A stretch of DNA of 64,000 nt from Demequina sp. NBRC 110057 (GTDB taxonomy: Bacteria; Actinomycetota; Actinomycetes; Actinomycetales; Demequinaceae), in assembly GCF_002090175.1 (NCBI RefSeq), contig NZ_BBRN01000003.1:620001-684000 (forward strand). The letters run 5' to 3'. The position numbers were made by a program, and so were the translations under genes. The notes beneath the pieces were generated by a model, which worked only from the letters and a program-made list of their open reading frames with translations, was not told where the DNA came from and ran no database searches. Shown in pieces: positions 48,696 to 57,822 of the stretch. The number at the start of each line of letters is the position of its first letter. Position 1 is the first letter of the stretch.

Positions 48696-49925
48696 ATGCC
48701 GACCGCCGAGACCCCCGCGCTCGAGTGGGCCGAGCCGTGGACCCGCGGCCACGGCGAGCACCAGGTGCGCGAGCTCTTCTCCGCCACGTTCGGGGGCGAA
48801 CCCGCCGGCGTCTGGTCGGCGCCGGGGCGCGTCATGATCATCGGCGAGCACGCCGACTACAACGGCGGCGCCACGCTCGCCACCGCCACCCCGCATCGGC
48901 TGTACGTCGCCGCGCGCCCGCGCAGGGACTTCCTGGTGCGAGCCGTCGAGGGCCAGGCAGCCCAGCTGGTGGGTCCCGATGGCGTGTGGGAGGCGGACCT
49001 GTCCGACCTCGAGCCGGGCGCCGCGCCGGGCTGGCCTACCTACATCGCCGCGATCCTGTGGACGCTGCGCGAACGCGGCTACGACGGCCCCGGCCTCGAC
49101 ATCGCCGCCACCAGCTGCCTCCCTCCCGGCGGCGGGCTCGCCGGCTGGGCGGCGCTCGAGGCGGCGACGGTGCAGGCGGCCGATGGGCTCTGGGGCCTCG
49201 CGCTGTCCGACACCCAGGAGGGAAGGCTCGAGCTGGCCGAGGTGTGTTTCGAGGCGGAGCAGCGTTTCATCGGCTCCCCCTTCGGCGGCACCGACCAGCA
49301 CACGGCGCTGAGGTGCCGCGACGGTGAGGCCATCTCGCTCGACTTCTCCCGCCAGCCGCCTCCCGCCACGCGCTTCCCGCTGCCCTTCCGGGAGTACGGG
49401 CTGGGCCTCCTGGTCGTGAAGACCGCCGACGTCTACCCCATCGCCGACCCGCTGTTCCTCGCCCGTCAGGCCGAATGCCGGGCGGCAGCGCGCGCTCTCG
49501 GCGTGCGGTGGGTGGGCCAGCTTGCCGAGCAGGACGACGCGCTGGCGAGGGTGGCAGCCCTCGCCGACCCCGTCCTGAGGCGGCGCGCGCGCCACCTCAT
49601 CACCGAAATCGGACGCGTCCGCGGCATCGGCCAGGCGCTGTCAGGGCTCGGGCCCGCGCACGAACGCTTCACCGAGATCGGCAGGCTGCTGTACCGCTCG
49701 CACGCGTCACTCGAGCTCGACTTCGACGTGTCGACGCCGGCCCTCAACCGCGCTGTCGACGCCGCCTACCGCTCCGGCGCGCTCGGCGCGCGCATGTTCG
49801 GGGCGGGCCGCGGCGGCTCCGTGCTCGCGCTCGTGCGCCGGGCCGAGGCCGAGCGCACCGCGGCGCGCATTCAGGAAGACCTGTTGGCCGCGGGCGACCC
49901 GCGCCCGGCCTTCGTCCTGGTGTGA
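48696..49925 (+). CDS. galactokinase-family (GHMP) kinase with degenerate motifs
   Basis: 409 residues over the full galactokinase length. The galactokinase signature region reads APGRVMIIGEHADYNGG (N to M and T to A against the usual APGRVNLIGEHTDYNGG); E51, H52 and D54 remain. The catalytic Asp is D200 in GGTDQH. The phosphate loop, normally PxGxGLSSSA, reads LPPGGGLAGWAA (142-153) and has lost all three serines. The C-terminal GAGRGGSVLAL is kept. There is no galT or galE nearby. It may be a weak kinase or act on another sugar; galactokinase is the family name, not a proven activity. Confidence 0.75.
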   Translation: MPTAETPALEWAEPWTRGHGEHQVRELFSATFGGEPAGVWSAPGRVMIIGEHADYNGGATLATATPHRLYVAARPRRDFLVRAVEGQAAQLVGPDGVWEADLSDLEPGAAPGWPTYIAAILWTLRERGYDGPGLDIAATSCLPPGGGLAGWAALEAATVQAADGLWGLALSDTQEGRLELAEVCFEAEQRFIGSPFGGTDQHTALRCRDGEAISLDFSRQPPPATRFPLPFREYGLGLLVVKTADVYPIADPLFLARQAECRAAARALGVRWVGQLAEQDDALARVAALADPVLRRRARHLITEIGRVRGIGQALSGLGPAHERFTEIGRLLYRSHASLELDFDVSTPALNRAVDAAYRSGALGARMFGAGRGGSVLALVRRAEAERTAARIQEDLLAAGDPRPAFVLV

Positions 49926-49947: not shown

Positions 49948-50751
49948 CTACAGCGAGTAGTCGACCACCAGGGGGGCGTGGTCCGACCATCGCGTGTCGT
50001 ACGACGGGGCGCGATCCACGCGGACGTCGGTGACCGCCGCGGCGAGCGCGGGAGAGGTCAGCTGATAGTCGATGCGCCAGCCCGAGTCGTTGTCGAACGC
50101 CTTGCCGCGCTGCGACCACCACGTGTACGGCCCGGGCCGGTCGCCCGCGTGGACGCGGTGCACGTCCACCCAGCCGGCGTCGATCCAGCGGTCAACGTAG
50201 GCGCGCTCCTCGGGAAGGAAGCCCGCCGACTTGAGGTTGCCCTTCCAATTCTTGATGTCGTTGTTGGTGTGGGCGATGTTGATGTCGCCCATCACCACGA
50301 CGCGCTCGTGGGCGGCGGCGAGCTGCTCGAGCCGCGCCGTCATGAGCTCAAGGAAGGCATACTTGTCGGCCATCGACTCGGGCTTCTCGACGTTTCCCGA
50401 GTGGACGTAGACGCTGACGATGCGCACGGGGCCCGAGGCGGACTCGACGGTGGCCTCGACCCAGCGGCCCGTGTGGGTCGCCGCGGTCGCGCTGTCGCCG
50501 AGCGCCTCGGCGCCCACGTGCACGTCACTGAGGTCGGTGCGGGACAGGATGGCGACGCCGTTGCGCCCCTTCTGCTCGCTGATGTGGTCGGCCACATGCC
50601 AGGTCTCGCCCAGCTGGGCGGCGACCAGGTCCTGAGGCGCGCGCACCTCCTGCAGGCACACCACATCGGCCCCGACCTCGTCGAGCCACTCGAGCATGCC
50701 CTTGCGCAGGGCGGCGCGCACCCCGTTGACGTTGACCGACACGATCCGCAT
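49948..50751 (-). CDS. xthA: exodeoxyribonuclease III
   Basis: 267 residues: [43 protein letters not shown], and the C-terminal RIDYQL...SDHAPLVVDY motif of the exonuclease III/AP-endonuclease fold, with all metal and catalytic residues in place. It repairs abasic sites. The ATG overlaps the folD stop (TGATG), so it is the third gene of the glyA-folD operon. Confidence 0.93.
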   Translation of the reverse strand: MRIVSVNVNGVRAALRKGMLEWLDEVGADVVCLQEVRAPQDLVAAQLGETWHVADHISEQKGRNGVAILSRTDLSDVHVGAEALGDSATAATHTGRWVEATVESASGPVRIVSVYVHSGNVEKPESMADKYAFLELMTARLEQLAAAHERVVVMGDINIAHTNNDIKNWKGNLKSAGFLPEERAYVDRWIDAGWVDVHRVHAGDRPGPYTWWSQRGKAFDNDSGWRIDYQLTSPALAAAVTDVRVDRAPSYDTRWSDHAPLVVDYSL

Positions 50752-51638
50752 CAGCGAATCCCCGCCTTCCTCTCGCTTGCCTCGACGACGTTCGCCAGCA
50801 GCATCGCCCTGGTCATCGGGCCTACTCCCCCAGGGTTGGGCGAGTACCAGGACGAGCGCTCCACGGCATCGGACGCGATGTCGCCAGCGACCTTCGACTT
50901 GCCGGTGTCCGGGTCGGTGACGCGGGACACTCCCACGTCGACCAGCACGGCGCCGTCCTTGACCATGTCCCCGGAGATGATGCCGGGGACGCCCGCGGCG
51001 GCGACGATGACGTCGGCCTCGCGGGTGTGCGACGCCAGGTCCGCGGTGCCGGTGTGGCACAGGGTGACGGTCGCGTTGACGTCCTTGCGGGTGAGCAGCA
51101 GGCCGATGCTGCGGCCCACTGTCGTGCCGCGGCCCACCACGACCACGTGCTTGCCGGCGAGGTCGACGCCGTGGCGCTCGATGAGCTCGATGATGCCCTT
51201 GGGCGTGCACGGCAGGCTCGACTCGACGGGCTCGGCGATGCGCAGCACCAGCCGGCCAAGGTTGGTCGGGTGGAGGCCGTCGGCGTCCTTGTCGGGGTCG
51301 ATGAGCTCGAGCACGCGGTGCGTGTCGATGCCCTGCGGCAGCGGCAGCTGCACGATGAAGCCGGTGCAGGCGGGGTCCTCGTTGAGGCGCGTCACCGCGG
51401 CCTCGATGTCCTCCTGCGTCGCCGACTCGGGAAGGTCCTCGCGGATCGAGGCGATGCCCACCTCGGCGCAGTCGCGGTGCTTGCCCGCCACGTACCAGGT
51501 GGACCCCGGGTCCTCGCCGACCAGCAGCGTGCCGAGGCCGGGGGTGACGCCGCGCTCGGCGAGCGCGGCGACCCTCTCGGCGAGCTCGGCCTTGATGGCT
51601 GCGGCGGTGGCGGTGCCGTCGAGCTTCTGCGGCGCCAT
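50751..51638 (-). CDS. folD: methylenetetrahydrofolate dehydrogenase/cyclohydrolase FolD
   Basis: 295 residues. The catalytic region [16 protein letters not shown] (Tyr and Lys), [35 protein letters not shown] (NADP-binding; many FolD proteins read GRSxxVGxP here, whereas this one has GTTVGRSIG) and [15 protein letters not shown]. It interconverts 5,10-methylene- and 10-formyl-tetrahydrofolate. The ATG overlaps the glyA stop by one base (TAATG), so the pair is translationally coupled and shares the ZTP-riboswitch leader. Confidence 0.95.
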
Positions 51639-52936: not shown

Positions 52937-52989
52937 GTCATTCCCTTACGTGTCTGGCGGCACGGGGCCGCCGGTGGTCCGGTGACCTT
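52937..52989 (-). promoter_or_regulatory. expression platform between ZTP aptamer and glyA
   Basis: A GGCGGC/GCCGCC hairpin (52956-52961 with 52967-52972) ends about 20 bases before the ATG, next to the AAGGGA ribosome site. Its GGCCCC segment could instead pair with the GGGCC at the aptamer's 3' end, giving a two-state switch. No T run follows the hairpin, so control of translation or Rho-dependent termination is more likely than intrinsic termination. Confidence 0.45.
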
Positions 52990-53064
52990 GGCCCAGGCGT
53001 ACGACCAACAGTCGGTGAATGCGTGCCGCTCCCTCGTGGTGACCCACTGCGCCAGTCGCGACGC
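52990..53064 (-). ncRNA. ZTP (pfl) riboswitch aptamer upstream of glyA-folD-xthA
   Basis: On the minus strand the leader contains CGCGACTGGCG, then GGGTCACCACGAGGGAGCG, a variable linker, and ACGCCTGGGC. These are the conserved blocks of the pfl/ZTP riboswitch in order and spacing. ZTP/ZMP (AICAR phosphates) accumulate when 10-formyl-tetrahydrofolate is short and turn such operons on. The aptamer begins at about the expected transcription start. Confidence 0.93.
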
Positions 53065-53069
53065 GCGCC

Positions 53070-53098
53070 AGTCTACCCAAGCCGGGAGCCTGGGTCAC
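53070..53098 (-). promoter_or_regulatory. promoter of the glyA-folD-xthA operon
   Basis: -35 GTGACC (53093-53098), exactly 17 bases, -10 TAGACT (53070-53075) on the minus strand. Transcription would start near 53063, at the 5' edge of the ZTP aptamer. Confidence 0.7.
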
Positions 53099-56133: not shown

Positions 56134-56935
56134 GCCGCGCCCGCAGCGTCCCGGCATCGACGAGATCCGCGAGGTGTGCCAGCCCCCGGAGATTCGCGGC
56201 CGCAAGAACTCCGAGCACTGGACGGGTGACGTATTCACCCGCTCCATCTCTCCCTACCTCACGCGCGCGTTCGTTACGGCGGGGATCAGCGCCAACGCCG
56301 TCACGGTCGCGATGATCGCGTGCGGCTGGGCCGCCGCGGCGGCGCTCCTCATCCCCGGCTGGTGGGGCCCGCTACTCGCCGCCGTCCTCGCCATGGGTCA
56401 GATGCTGCTCGATGCGTCCGACGGCGAGGTCGCCAGGTGGACAAGGAAGATGGGGCCGCGCGGCATCTTCCTCGACCGCATCGCCCACACCACCACCGAA
56501 TCGCTGATCCCCATGGCCGCGGGGCTCAGGATCGCGCTCGAAACGGACCCGCTGGACTGGCGCTGGGCCTTCGCCGGCGTGCTGCTGGGCATGCTCGTGC
56601 TGTGGAACAAGTCCCTCAACGACGGCTCGCGGCTCGCGCGGGTCCAGGGCGGGCTGCCGCTTGCCAAGGAAGAGACCGGCATCAAGGTACCCACCGTGGG
56701 ATGGGTCGCGCGGGCGCGCCGCGCCGCCAACCTGGTCCCCATCCACCGGGCCTATCACTCCGTGGAGCAGACCCTCGTGATGCTCGTCCTCGCGACCGTC
56801 GGGCTCGTCGCGGGGTTCGACGGCGTCGCCGTCGCCGTGGTGGTCCTGCTGGTCGCCGCCCCGGTCGTCATCGCTGGCCACACCCTGGCGATCCTCACCT
56901 CCGCCCAGCTGAAGGCGCCGCCGCCATCGTCCTGA
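56120..56935 (+). CDS. CDP-alcohol phosphatidyltransferase family protein, altered last motif residue
   Basis: 271 residues with about six helices. The CDP-alcohol motif reads D98-x2-D101-G102-x2-A105-R106-x8-G115-x3-D119-x3-H123; all positions match except the last, where the catalytic-base Asp is His. Such enzymes swap CMP for an alcohol in phospholipid or polyol-phosphate synthesis. It follows the CDP-glycerol transferase-like gene with overlapping frames, so the pair may make one glycerophosphate-type surface polymer. Whether His supports catalysis is unknown. Confidence 0.8.
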   Translation: MPTPEPRPQRPGIDEIREVCQPPEIRGRKNSEHWTGDVFTRSISPYLTRAFVTAGISANAVTVAMIACGWAAAAALLIPGWWGPLLAAVLAMGQMLLDASDGEVARWTRKMGPRGIFLDRIAHTTTESLIPMAAGLRIALETDPLDWRWAFAGVLLGMLVLWNKSLNDGSRLARVQGGLPLAKEETGIKVPTVGWVARARRAANLVPIHRAYHSVEQTLVMLVLATVGLVAGFDGVAVAVVVLLVAAPVVIAGHTLAILTSAQLKAPPPSS

Positions 56936-56957
56936 CGAGCGACGGGCGCGGCGTCGA

Positions 56958-56963
56958 TACACT
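56958..56963 (+). promoter_or_regulatory. -10 box, leaderless promoter of purU
   Basis: TACACT, 7 bases before the ATG. Confidence 0.5.
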
Positions 56964-56970
56964 GACCGCC

Positions 56971-57822
56971 ATGTCCGACGCCTCGCGCTACGTGCTCAGC
57001 CTGTCCTGCCCCGACGGCCCCGGCATCGTCCACGCCGTCTCCGGAGCCCTCGCCGCGCTCGACGGCAACATCACTGAGTCGCAGCAGTTCGGGGACCCCG
57101 ACACCGGGCTGTTCTTCATGCGCGTGGAGGTCACCAGCCCCGCCGGACGCGACCAGATCGAGGCGGCCGTCACGCCGCTTGCCGAGCGCTTCCGCATGGA
57201 GTGGAACCTCGATATCGCCGGACGCGCCATGCGCACGCTGGTGCTGGTCTCGAAGTCCGCCCACTGCGCCAACGACCTGCTCTTCCGCGAGCGCGCGCGC
57301 ACCCTCCCCATCGACATCGTCGCCGTCGCGGGCAATCACGCGACGCTCGAGCCGCTTGCCTCGTTCTACGGCAAGCCGTTCCACCACGTGCCCGTGACCG
57401 CCGAGACCAAGGCCGACGCGGAGCGCCAGCTGCTGGCGCTGGTGGACGACCTTGACGTGGAGCTCGTGGTCCTCGCGCGCTACATGCAGATCCTGTCCCC
57501 CGAGCTGTCGGAGGCGCTGCGCGGCAGGGCGATCAACATCCACCACTCGTTCCTGCCGTCGTTCAAGGGTGCGCGCCCCTACTTCCAGGCTCACGACCGC
57601 GGCGTGAAGCTCATCGGCGCGACCGCCCACTACGTGACGAGCGACCTCGACGAGGGGCCCATCATCGAGCAGGAGGTCGAGCGCGTGGACCACACCCACA
57701 CGCCCGAGTCCCTCACCGCGGTCGGCGCCGACGTGGAGCGCCGCGCGCTCGCCCGGGCGGTCAGGTGGCACGCCGAGCACCGCGTGCTGCTGGACGGCCA
57801 CCGCACCATCGTCTTCCGGTAG
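56971..57822 (+). CDS. purU: formyltetrahydrofolate deformylase PurU
   Basis: 283 residues: an N-terminal ACT domain (YVLSLSCPDGPGIVHAVSGALAALDGNITES) and a formyl-transferase-like domain with the catalytic Asn-His-Asp set in INIHHSFLPSF and TSDLDEGPIIEQ. It releases formate and tetrahydrofolate from 10-formyl-tetrahydrofolate, balancing one-carbon pools against the nearby glyA-folD operon. It has its own leaderless promoter inside the gap after the CDP-alcohol transferase gene. Confidence 0.94.
   Translation: MSDASRYVLSLSCPDGPGIVHAVSGALAALDGNITESQQFGDPDTGLFFMRVEVTSPAGRDQIEAAVTPLAERFRMEWNLDIAGRAMRTLVLVSKSAHCANDLLFRERARTLPIDIVAVAGNHATLEPLASFYGKPFHHVPVTAETKADAERQLLALVDDLDVELVVLARYMQILSPELSEALRGRAINIHHSFLPSFKGARPYFQAHDRGVKLIGATAHYVTSDLDEGPIIEQEVERVDHTHTPESLTAVGADVERRALARAVRWHAEHRVLLDGHRTIVFR

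Follow-up and report, generated by a model that had tools for sequence, protein, structure and literature searches.

The glyA-folD-xthA locus and its riboswitch

The window, a 64,000-nucleotide stretch of the Demequina sp. NBRC 110057 genome, carries on its reverse strand a promoter and an RNA aptamer followed by genes for serine hydroxymethyltransferase (glyA), FolD and exonuclease III (xthA) (Table 1). Both gene junctions are 1-base overlaps, TAATG between glyA and folD (folD start codon at 51638) and TGATG between folD and xthA (xthA start codon at 50751), and the NCBIfam models and junctions agree with the first-pass annotation, which had named these three products and the TGATG overlap. 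A galactokinase-like gene on the opposite strand ends at 49925, and the operon therefore probably stops at xthA.

Table 1. Features of the riboswitch operon, in window coordinates.
Feature	Coordinates	Strand	Basis
Promoter	53070..53098	-	-35 GTGACC (53098-53093), 17-base spacer, -10 TAGACT (53075-53070)
ZMP/ZTP riboswitch aptamer	52984..53069	-	RF01750 covariance model, 52.0 bits (gathering score 39), E 1.4e-5
Presumed expression platform	52937..52983	-	Inverted repeat and Shine-Dalgarno-like sequence
glyA, serine hydroxymethyltransferase, 432 aa	51638..52936	-	NCBIfam PRK00011, 591 bits (cut-off 335)
folD, 295 aa	50751..51638	-	NCBIfam PRK14193, 461.9 bits (cut-off 401)
xthA, exonuclease III, 267 aa	49948..50751	-	TIGR00633, 210.9 bits (cut-off 99.05)

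The ZTP riboswitch proposed ahead of these genes was recovered by covariance-model search, in which all 86 positions of RF01750 aligned at a score above the gathering cut-off; ZMP binding by this aptamer is presumed from its RNA family. This was the single match at E ≤ 0.001 in the 2.73 Mb genome (completeness estimate 99.99%). RF01750 matches occur in 45/47 genomes of the family, 270/396 of the order and 44/396 of the phylum, and in each of 45 regions from the family (the window plus 44 relatives) the riboswitch precedes glyA and folD on one strand. The 2010 description of the pfl motif places glyA and folD among the five genes most commonly associated with it (PMC2864571), and ZTP riboswitches are described in a review as reporting 10-formyl-tetrahydrofolate (10-formyl-THF) shortage (PMC7266159). 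A ZTP riboswitch with glyA-folD is thus the ordinary state for the family, and the first-pass annotation was right to single out exonuclease III, the third gene, as the unusual part. Many genomes of the order have two listed ZTP riboswitch matches, while the window genome has the glyA copy only; the three scanned matches that are not at glyA (L148, L169 and L177) precede purH. An open reading frame at 56320-57822 on the forward strand, about 4 kb upstream of glyA and on the opposite strand to it, resembles by eye another 10-formyl-THF gene, PurU (formyltetrahydrofolate deformylase).

The promoter positions in Table 1 are those of the first-pass annotation and are supported by the family leaders. 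The TAGACT -10 element is exact in 40 of the 45, and TTGACA is matched on average at 2.27 of 6 bases with a spacer of 17 versus 0.87-1.38 with 15, 16, 18 and 19, a -35 signal that appears at spacer 17 only among the five spacers compared. When the best of spacers 16-18 is taken, mean agreement is 2.76 versus 2.11 in shuffles. An extended -10 (TGn) is found in 36/45 leaders, the window being among the nine without it, and a strict sigma-70 scan did not list the window promoter. The 5' strand of P1, with which the aptamer model starts, directly follows the -10, and from -10 spacing (a start 6-8 nt downstream) transcription probably begins at about 53064-53062. That start falls inside P1, so about five P1 pairs would remain.

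At the protein level, the best PDB sequence for the operon XthA is 2jc5 (191 bits), which we take to be the Neisseria AP endonuclease NApe, compared to 97 bits for the NExo entries 2jc4 and 6fk4; by this measure it resembles an AP-endonuclease-type exonuclease III. The genome holds two further PF03372 matches, the stronger of which (C6:174996-175742) scores 125.6 bits to 6fk4 (NExo) and 65 to 2jc5. With this second exonuclease III relative present, xthA may not be the genome's only AP endonuclease. Nfo was not found in the genome search, and Ung is present with a score just over its cut-off (186.5 versus 185.75 bits).

Placement and promoters of xthA among relatives

We then compared the position of xthA across the 45 family regions and found it downstream of folD on the same strand in 41, a count that includes L113 with just 53 aa of xthA inside the region. 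Two of the remaining four regions (L103, L135) are truncated at a contig end near 3.1 kb, and in the other two (L111, L119) 7.3 kb of sequence contains no xthA. In 13 of the 41, the window included, xthA overlaps folD by 1 or 4 bases. One of these (L098) was placed by eye from a visible TGATG, the script having taken a later start that shifts its anti-Shine-Dalgarno pairing value by a few bases; a sister-genus locus (L092), whose xthA may start at a TTG that lies 4 bases within folD, was left out. In 23 of the 41, TAnnnT lies 6-8 nt before the xthA start codon, which fits a leaderless transcript, and five loci are of neither kind (L092, L093, L113, L133 and L134).

The overlapping and TAnnnT loci differ in what lies upstream of xthA. 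All 13 overlap loci lack TAnnnT and any RecA-NDp-like match within 200 nt, as well as TGTCRG within 300 nt. A Shine-Dalgarno-like sequence precedes the window xthA, and mean anti-Shine-Dalgarno pairing before xthA is -7.7 kcal/mol in the 13 overlap loci versus -4.5 kcal/mol in the 23 TAnnnT loci (p=5e-6, computed ignoring relatedness of loci). Where folD and xthA are separated by 40-330 nt, 14 of 20 gaps fold at z ≤ -3 against mononucleotide shuffles, with long GC-rich stems, and these predicted hairpins may be terminators.

Many of the TAnnnT promoters resemble a known DNA-damage promoter. The mycobacterial form is given in one paper as tTGTCRgtg-8 nt-TAnnnT (PMC5656591), and another extends the RecA-NDp motif past mycobacteria to other Actinobacteria and attributes it to PafBC (PMC8223512). 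Scored against the mycobacterial consensus, 14 of the 23 TAnnnT xthA promoters agree with tTGTCRgtg at 7/9 positions or better at a spacer of 8, compared to at most 2/23 for each of the other spacers in the range 3-14, and the remaining nine score below 7/9. TAnnnT occurs 216 times on the operon strand across the regions of the 44 relatives, and only 17 of these sites reach 7/9, comprising the 14 xthA promoters, two sites in folD-xthA gaps (L133 and L134) and one elsewhere (L100). The window holds no tTGTCRgtg-N8-TAnnnT site at 7/9 or better on either strand. A core pattern, GTCRGBG-N8-TAnnnT, has 15 matches in 614,580 nt (44 relatives, both strands; none in the window), all within 40 nt before xthA, although it was written after the consensus-score result had been seen and is weighted below the published consensus score. 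A broader pattern occurs near xthA in 14 of 80 named XthA loci, with 27 matches in total in 1,550,214 nt; eight of those 14 belong to Microbacterium and have neither glyA nor folD in the retrieved sequence.

The window's own genome contains six exact TGTCRGTG-N8-TAnnnT sites, compared to none for a reversed control pattern. Three precede genes for an exonuclease/GIY-YIG protein, thymidylate kinase and methylguanine-DNA methyltransferase, with ATG 7 nt after the -10, and the genes at the other three encode a GNAT protein, a HAD hydrolase and a product with no Pfam assignment. The genome also has two WYL-domain matches on the same strand, separated by about 0.7 kb, an arrangement expected of pafB and pafC. 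The thymidylate kinase site (L316, C5:500349-500370) raises the separate possibility that the DNA-damage regulon of this genome includes a thymidylate gene.

On a midpoint-rooted GlyA+FolD tree of 45 rows, the overlap state requires 2 changes versus a shuffled mean of 11.4, and the overlap loci form one 12-genome clade with the window (support 96/96) plus L107 alone. The leaderless label requires 7 changes on the same tree. Because of this and the midpoint root, the direction of change can only be inferred. The overlap state is lineage-specific and probably derived. On the XthA tree the overlap state needs 3 changes and the 12-genome clade splits 10 + 2. The XthA proteins of L101 and L128 group apart from the overlap clade despite a shared TGATG, possibly reflecting in-place gene replacement or tree error.

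We also examined the neighborhood beyond the family. In Brachybacterium, Dermabacter and Helcobacillus, glyA-folD-xthA lies on one strand at 11 loci with gaps of 15-533 nt, and none of the 11 has an RF01750 match at gathering; six loci, four of them among the 11, have none even at E ≤ 1. These loci reject the idea that the neighborhood exists solely with ZTP control. RF01750 does accompany glyA-folD-xthA at two Sanguibacter loci and one Cellulomonas locus. In a non-random order sample (72 non-family loci hand-picked from the best-scoring 150 rows and two phylum rows), glyA and folD share a strand in 44/72. Of these 44, 21 also carry xthA on that strand inside the region, its aligned start lying 15-3152 nt beyond folD. 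We therefore also reject ZTP control of xthA throughout the order. One locus in another family of the order (L150) carries a ZTP riboswitch, glyA, folD, a Bmp/PnrA-like gene and xthA with script-called overlaps, and is possibly a further capture of xthA. A GC-based gene caller ranked long antisense open reading frames over true genes; no count uses this caller, and some of its intervals were Pfam-scanned.

Control of xthA and the level at which the riboswitch acts

These comparisons bear on the first-pass annotation's suggestion that xthA is under folate-stress control, which is plausible for this genome, where xthA directly adjoins folD, lacks TAnnnT in the 200 nt upstream and is preceded by a Shine-Dalgarno-like sequence. 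It does not hold generally, since in many relatives xthA has its own TAnnnT promoter, often of the RecA-NDp type and often behind a strong hairpin. We consider it likely that the window carries a three-gene ZTP operon in which control of xthA moved from a DNA-damage promoter to folate stress. A ZTP riboswitch with its own promoter would then control glyA-folD-xthA as one transcript. As established for the class, a shortage of 10-formyl-THF would raise ZMP/ZTP, aptamer binding would follow and expression would rise; GlyA and FolD would replenish one-carbon folates, and xthA would be expressed with them by virtue of the overlap between its start codon and the folD stop codon. In many Demequina relatives xthA appears instead to be read from a leaderless-type promoter of its own, which is often RecA-NDp/PafBC-like and in many cases preceded by a hairpin. 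The window clade has neither that promoter nor the gap, and folate stress has thus most likely replaced DNA damage as the signal that controls xthA.

It is quite possible, if somewhat short of an even chance, that xthA is instead a passive member of the operon, placed there by genome compaction, with basal polycistronic expression sufficient and no selected role for ZTP. The 11 riboswitch-free loci in Brachybacterium, Dermabacter and Helcobacillus fit this explanation, as do the 23 of 41 family loci that promote xthA separately by the TAnnnT criterion, and together they indicate that the neighborhood is independent of ZTP control. However, the overlap is kept in all 12 clade genomes and arises again in L107, and it is accompanied by a Shine-Dalgarno-like sequence, which argues against a purely passive placement.

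How the riboswitch would switch expression was approached through the leader, where the aptamer and the start codon of glyA are 47 nt apart. This interval contains a GC-rich inverted repeat (52972-52967 and 52961-52956) and then a Shine-Dalgarno-like AAGGGA (52947-52942) on the reverse strand. A similar GC-rich inverted repeat lies 3' of the aptamer in most family leaders by eye, and the 2010 pfl description reports predicted terminators overlapping the 3' portion of many of these RNAs (PMC2864571). These features would suit transcription termination by a hairpin without a U-tract, rather than control at translation, a mechanism that we regard as rather unlikely given the short distance from aptamer to start codon and a scan of the window leader that found no U-tract terminator. 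Because no such terminator is visible, we lean to translational control for the on/off step. Folded alone, the window leader shows no excess stability over shuffles (z 0.49).

Two further analyses address the ribosome-binding site (RBS). When aptamer folding was simulated, with P1 and P3 pairs forced and pseudoknot bases kept open, mean unpaired probability in the RBS region changed by +0.10 across 45 leaders versus +0.03 with shuffled linkers/spacers, and opening exceeded its own control in 32/45 leaders, although the window itself showed no opening (change of -0.02). In 40 distinct leaders, the P1-P3 linker paired better with its own RBS region than with swapped ones (-8.2 versus -7.3 kcal/mol, p=0.004 by a permutation that ignores relatedness), which again argues against termination. 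The window pair reaches -9.3 kcal/mol, with 3 of 39 foreign RBS regions pairing better. The non-conserved P1-P3 linker (53024-53008) seems to co-vary with the RBS region (52954-52931), resembling an anti-Shine-Dalgarno sequence inside the aptamer.

Separate expression of xthA from an unrecognized promoter inside folD or by RNA processing, with the riboswitch not governing it, appears improbable, given that neither TAnnnT (within 200 nt) nor TGTCRG (within 300 nt) lies ahead of xthA in any of the 13 overlap loci, although promoters can be degenerate, as in the order loci L168, L183 and L187, where by eye a TGTCGG block precedes xthA with a non-TAnnnT -10.

Folate stress, DNA repair and known systems

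If folate stress does control xthA in the window clade, a possible benefit would be that AP sites arising from uracil repair during thymidylate shortage are handled. ZTP control of xthA and this uracil/abasic-site rationale, both put forward in the first-pass annotation, are inferences. One E. coli study reports that an antifolate induces the DNA-damage response, and states that thymineless death of thymidylate auxotrophs is independent of uracil glycosylase, while allowing that uracil excision may contribute when dTTP is depleted slowly (PMC3258297). A stronger proposal, which we consider doubtful, is that the ZTP alarmone directly controls an AP endonuclease, and that the Demequina clade and at least one independent case swapped a DNA-damage promoter for a riboswitch and so would raise repair of uracil-derived abasic sites before damage is sensed.

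Among the matches listed in a search of main texts, largely open-access ones, no paper connected a ZTP riboswitch to xthA, exonuclease III or any AP endonuclease; one paper names xthA only among network neighbors of its query genes (PMC10609372). Transfer of xthA to folate-stress control, if true, would mean that the ZTP alarmone reaches beyond metabolism to genome maintenance. It would also offer a natural experiment, in which related species share a neighborhood and the repair gene answers either DNA damage or folate shortage, so that closely related bacteria could be compared to test how folate lack, uracil in DNA and AP-site repair are connected.

Compared to the RF01750 class, the window riboswitch is typical in matching the whole model above cut-off and in lying upstream of glyA and folD. 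Unlike the usual members of the class, its operon has a DNA-repair nuclease as third gene, its aptamer begins at or adjoining the inferred transcription start, and its leader is without a U-tract terminator. Compared to the RecA-NDp/PafBC system, 14 of the 23 TAnnnT relatives carry a promoter-like match at xthA (at least 7/9, exactly 8 nt), whereas the window, like all 13 overlap loci, has none there. Compared to the Neisseria enzymes, the operon XthA is closer to the AP endonuclease (2jc5) than to NExo (2jc4, 6fk4), and unlike either its gene lies behind a ZTP riboswitch.
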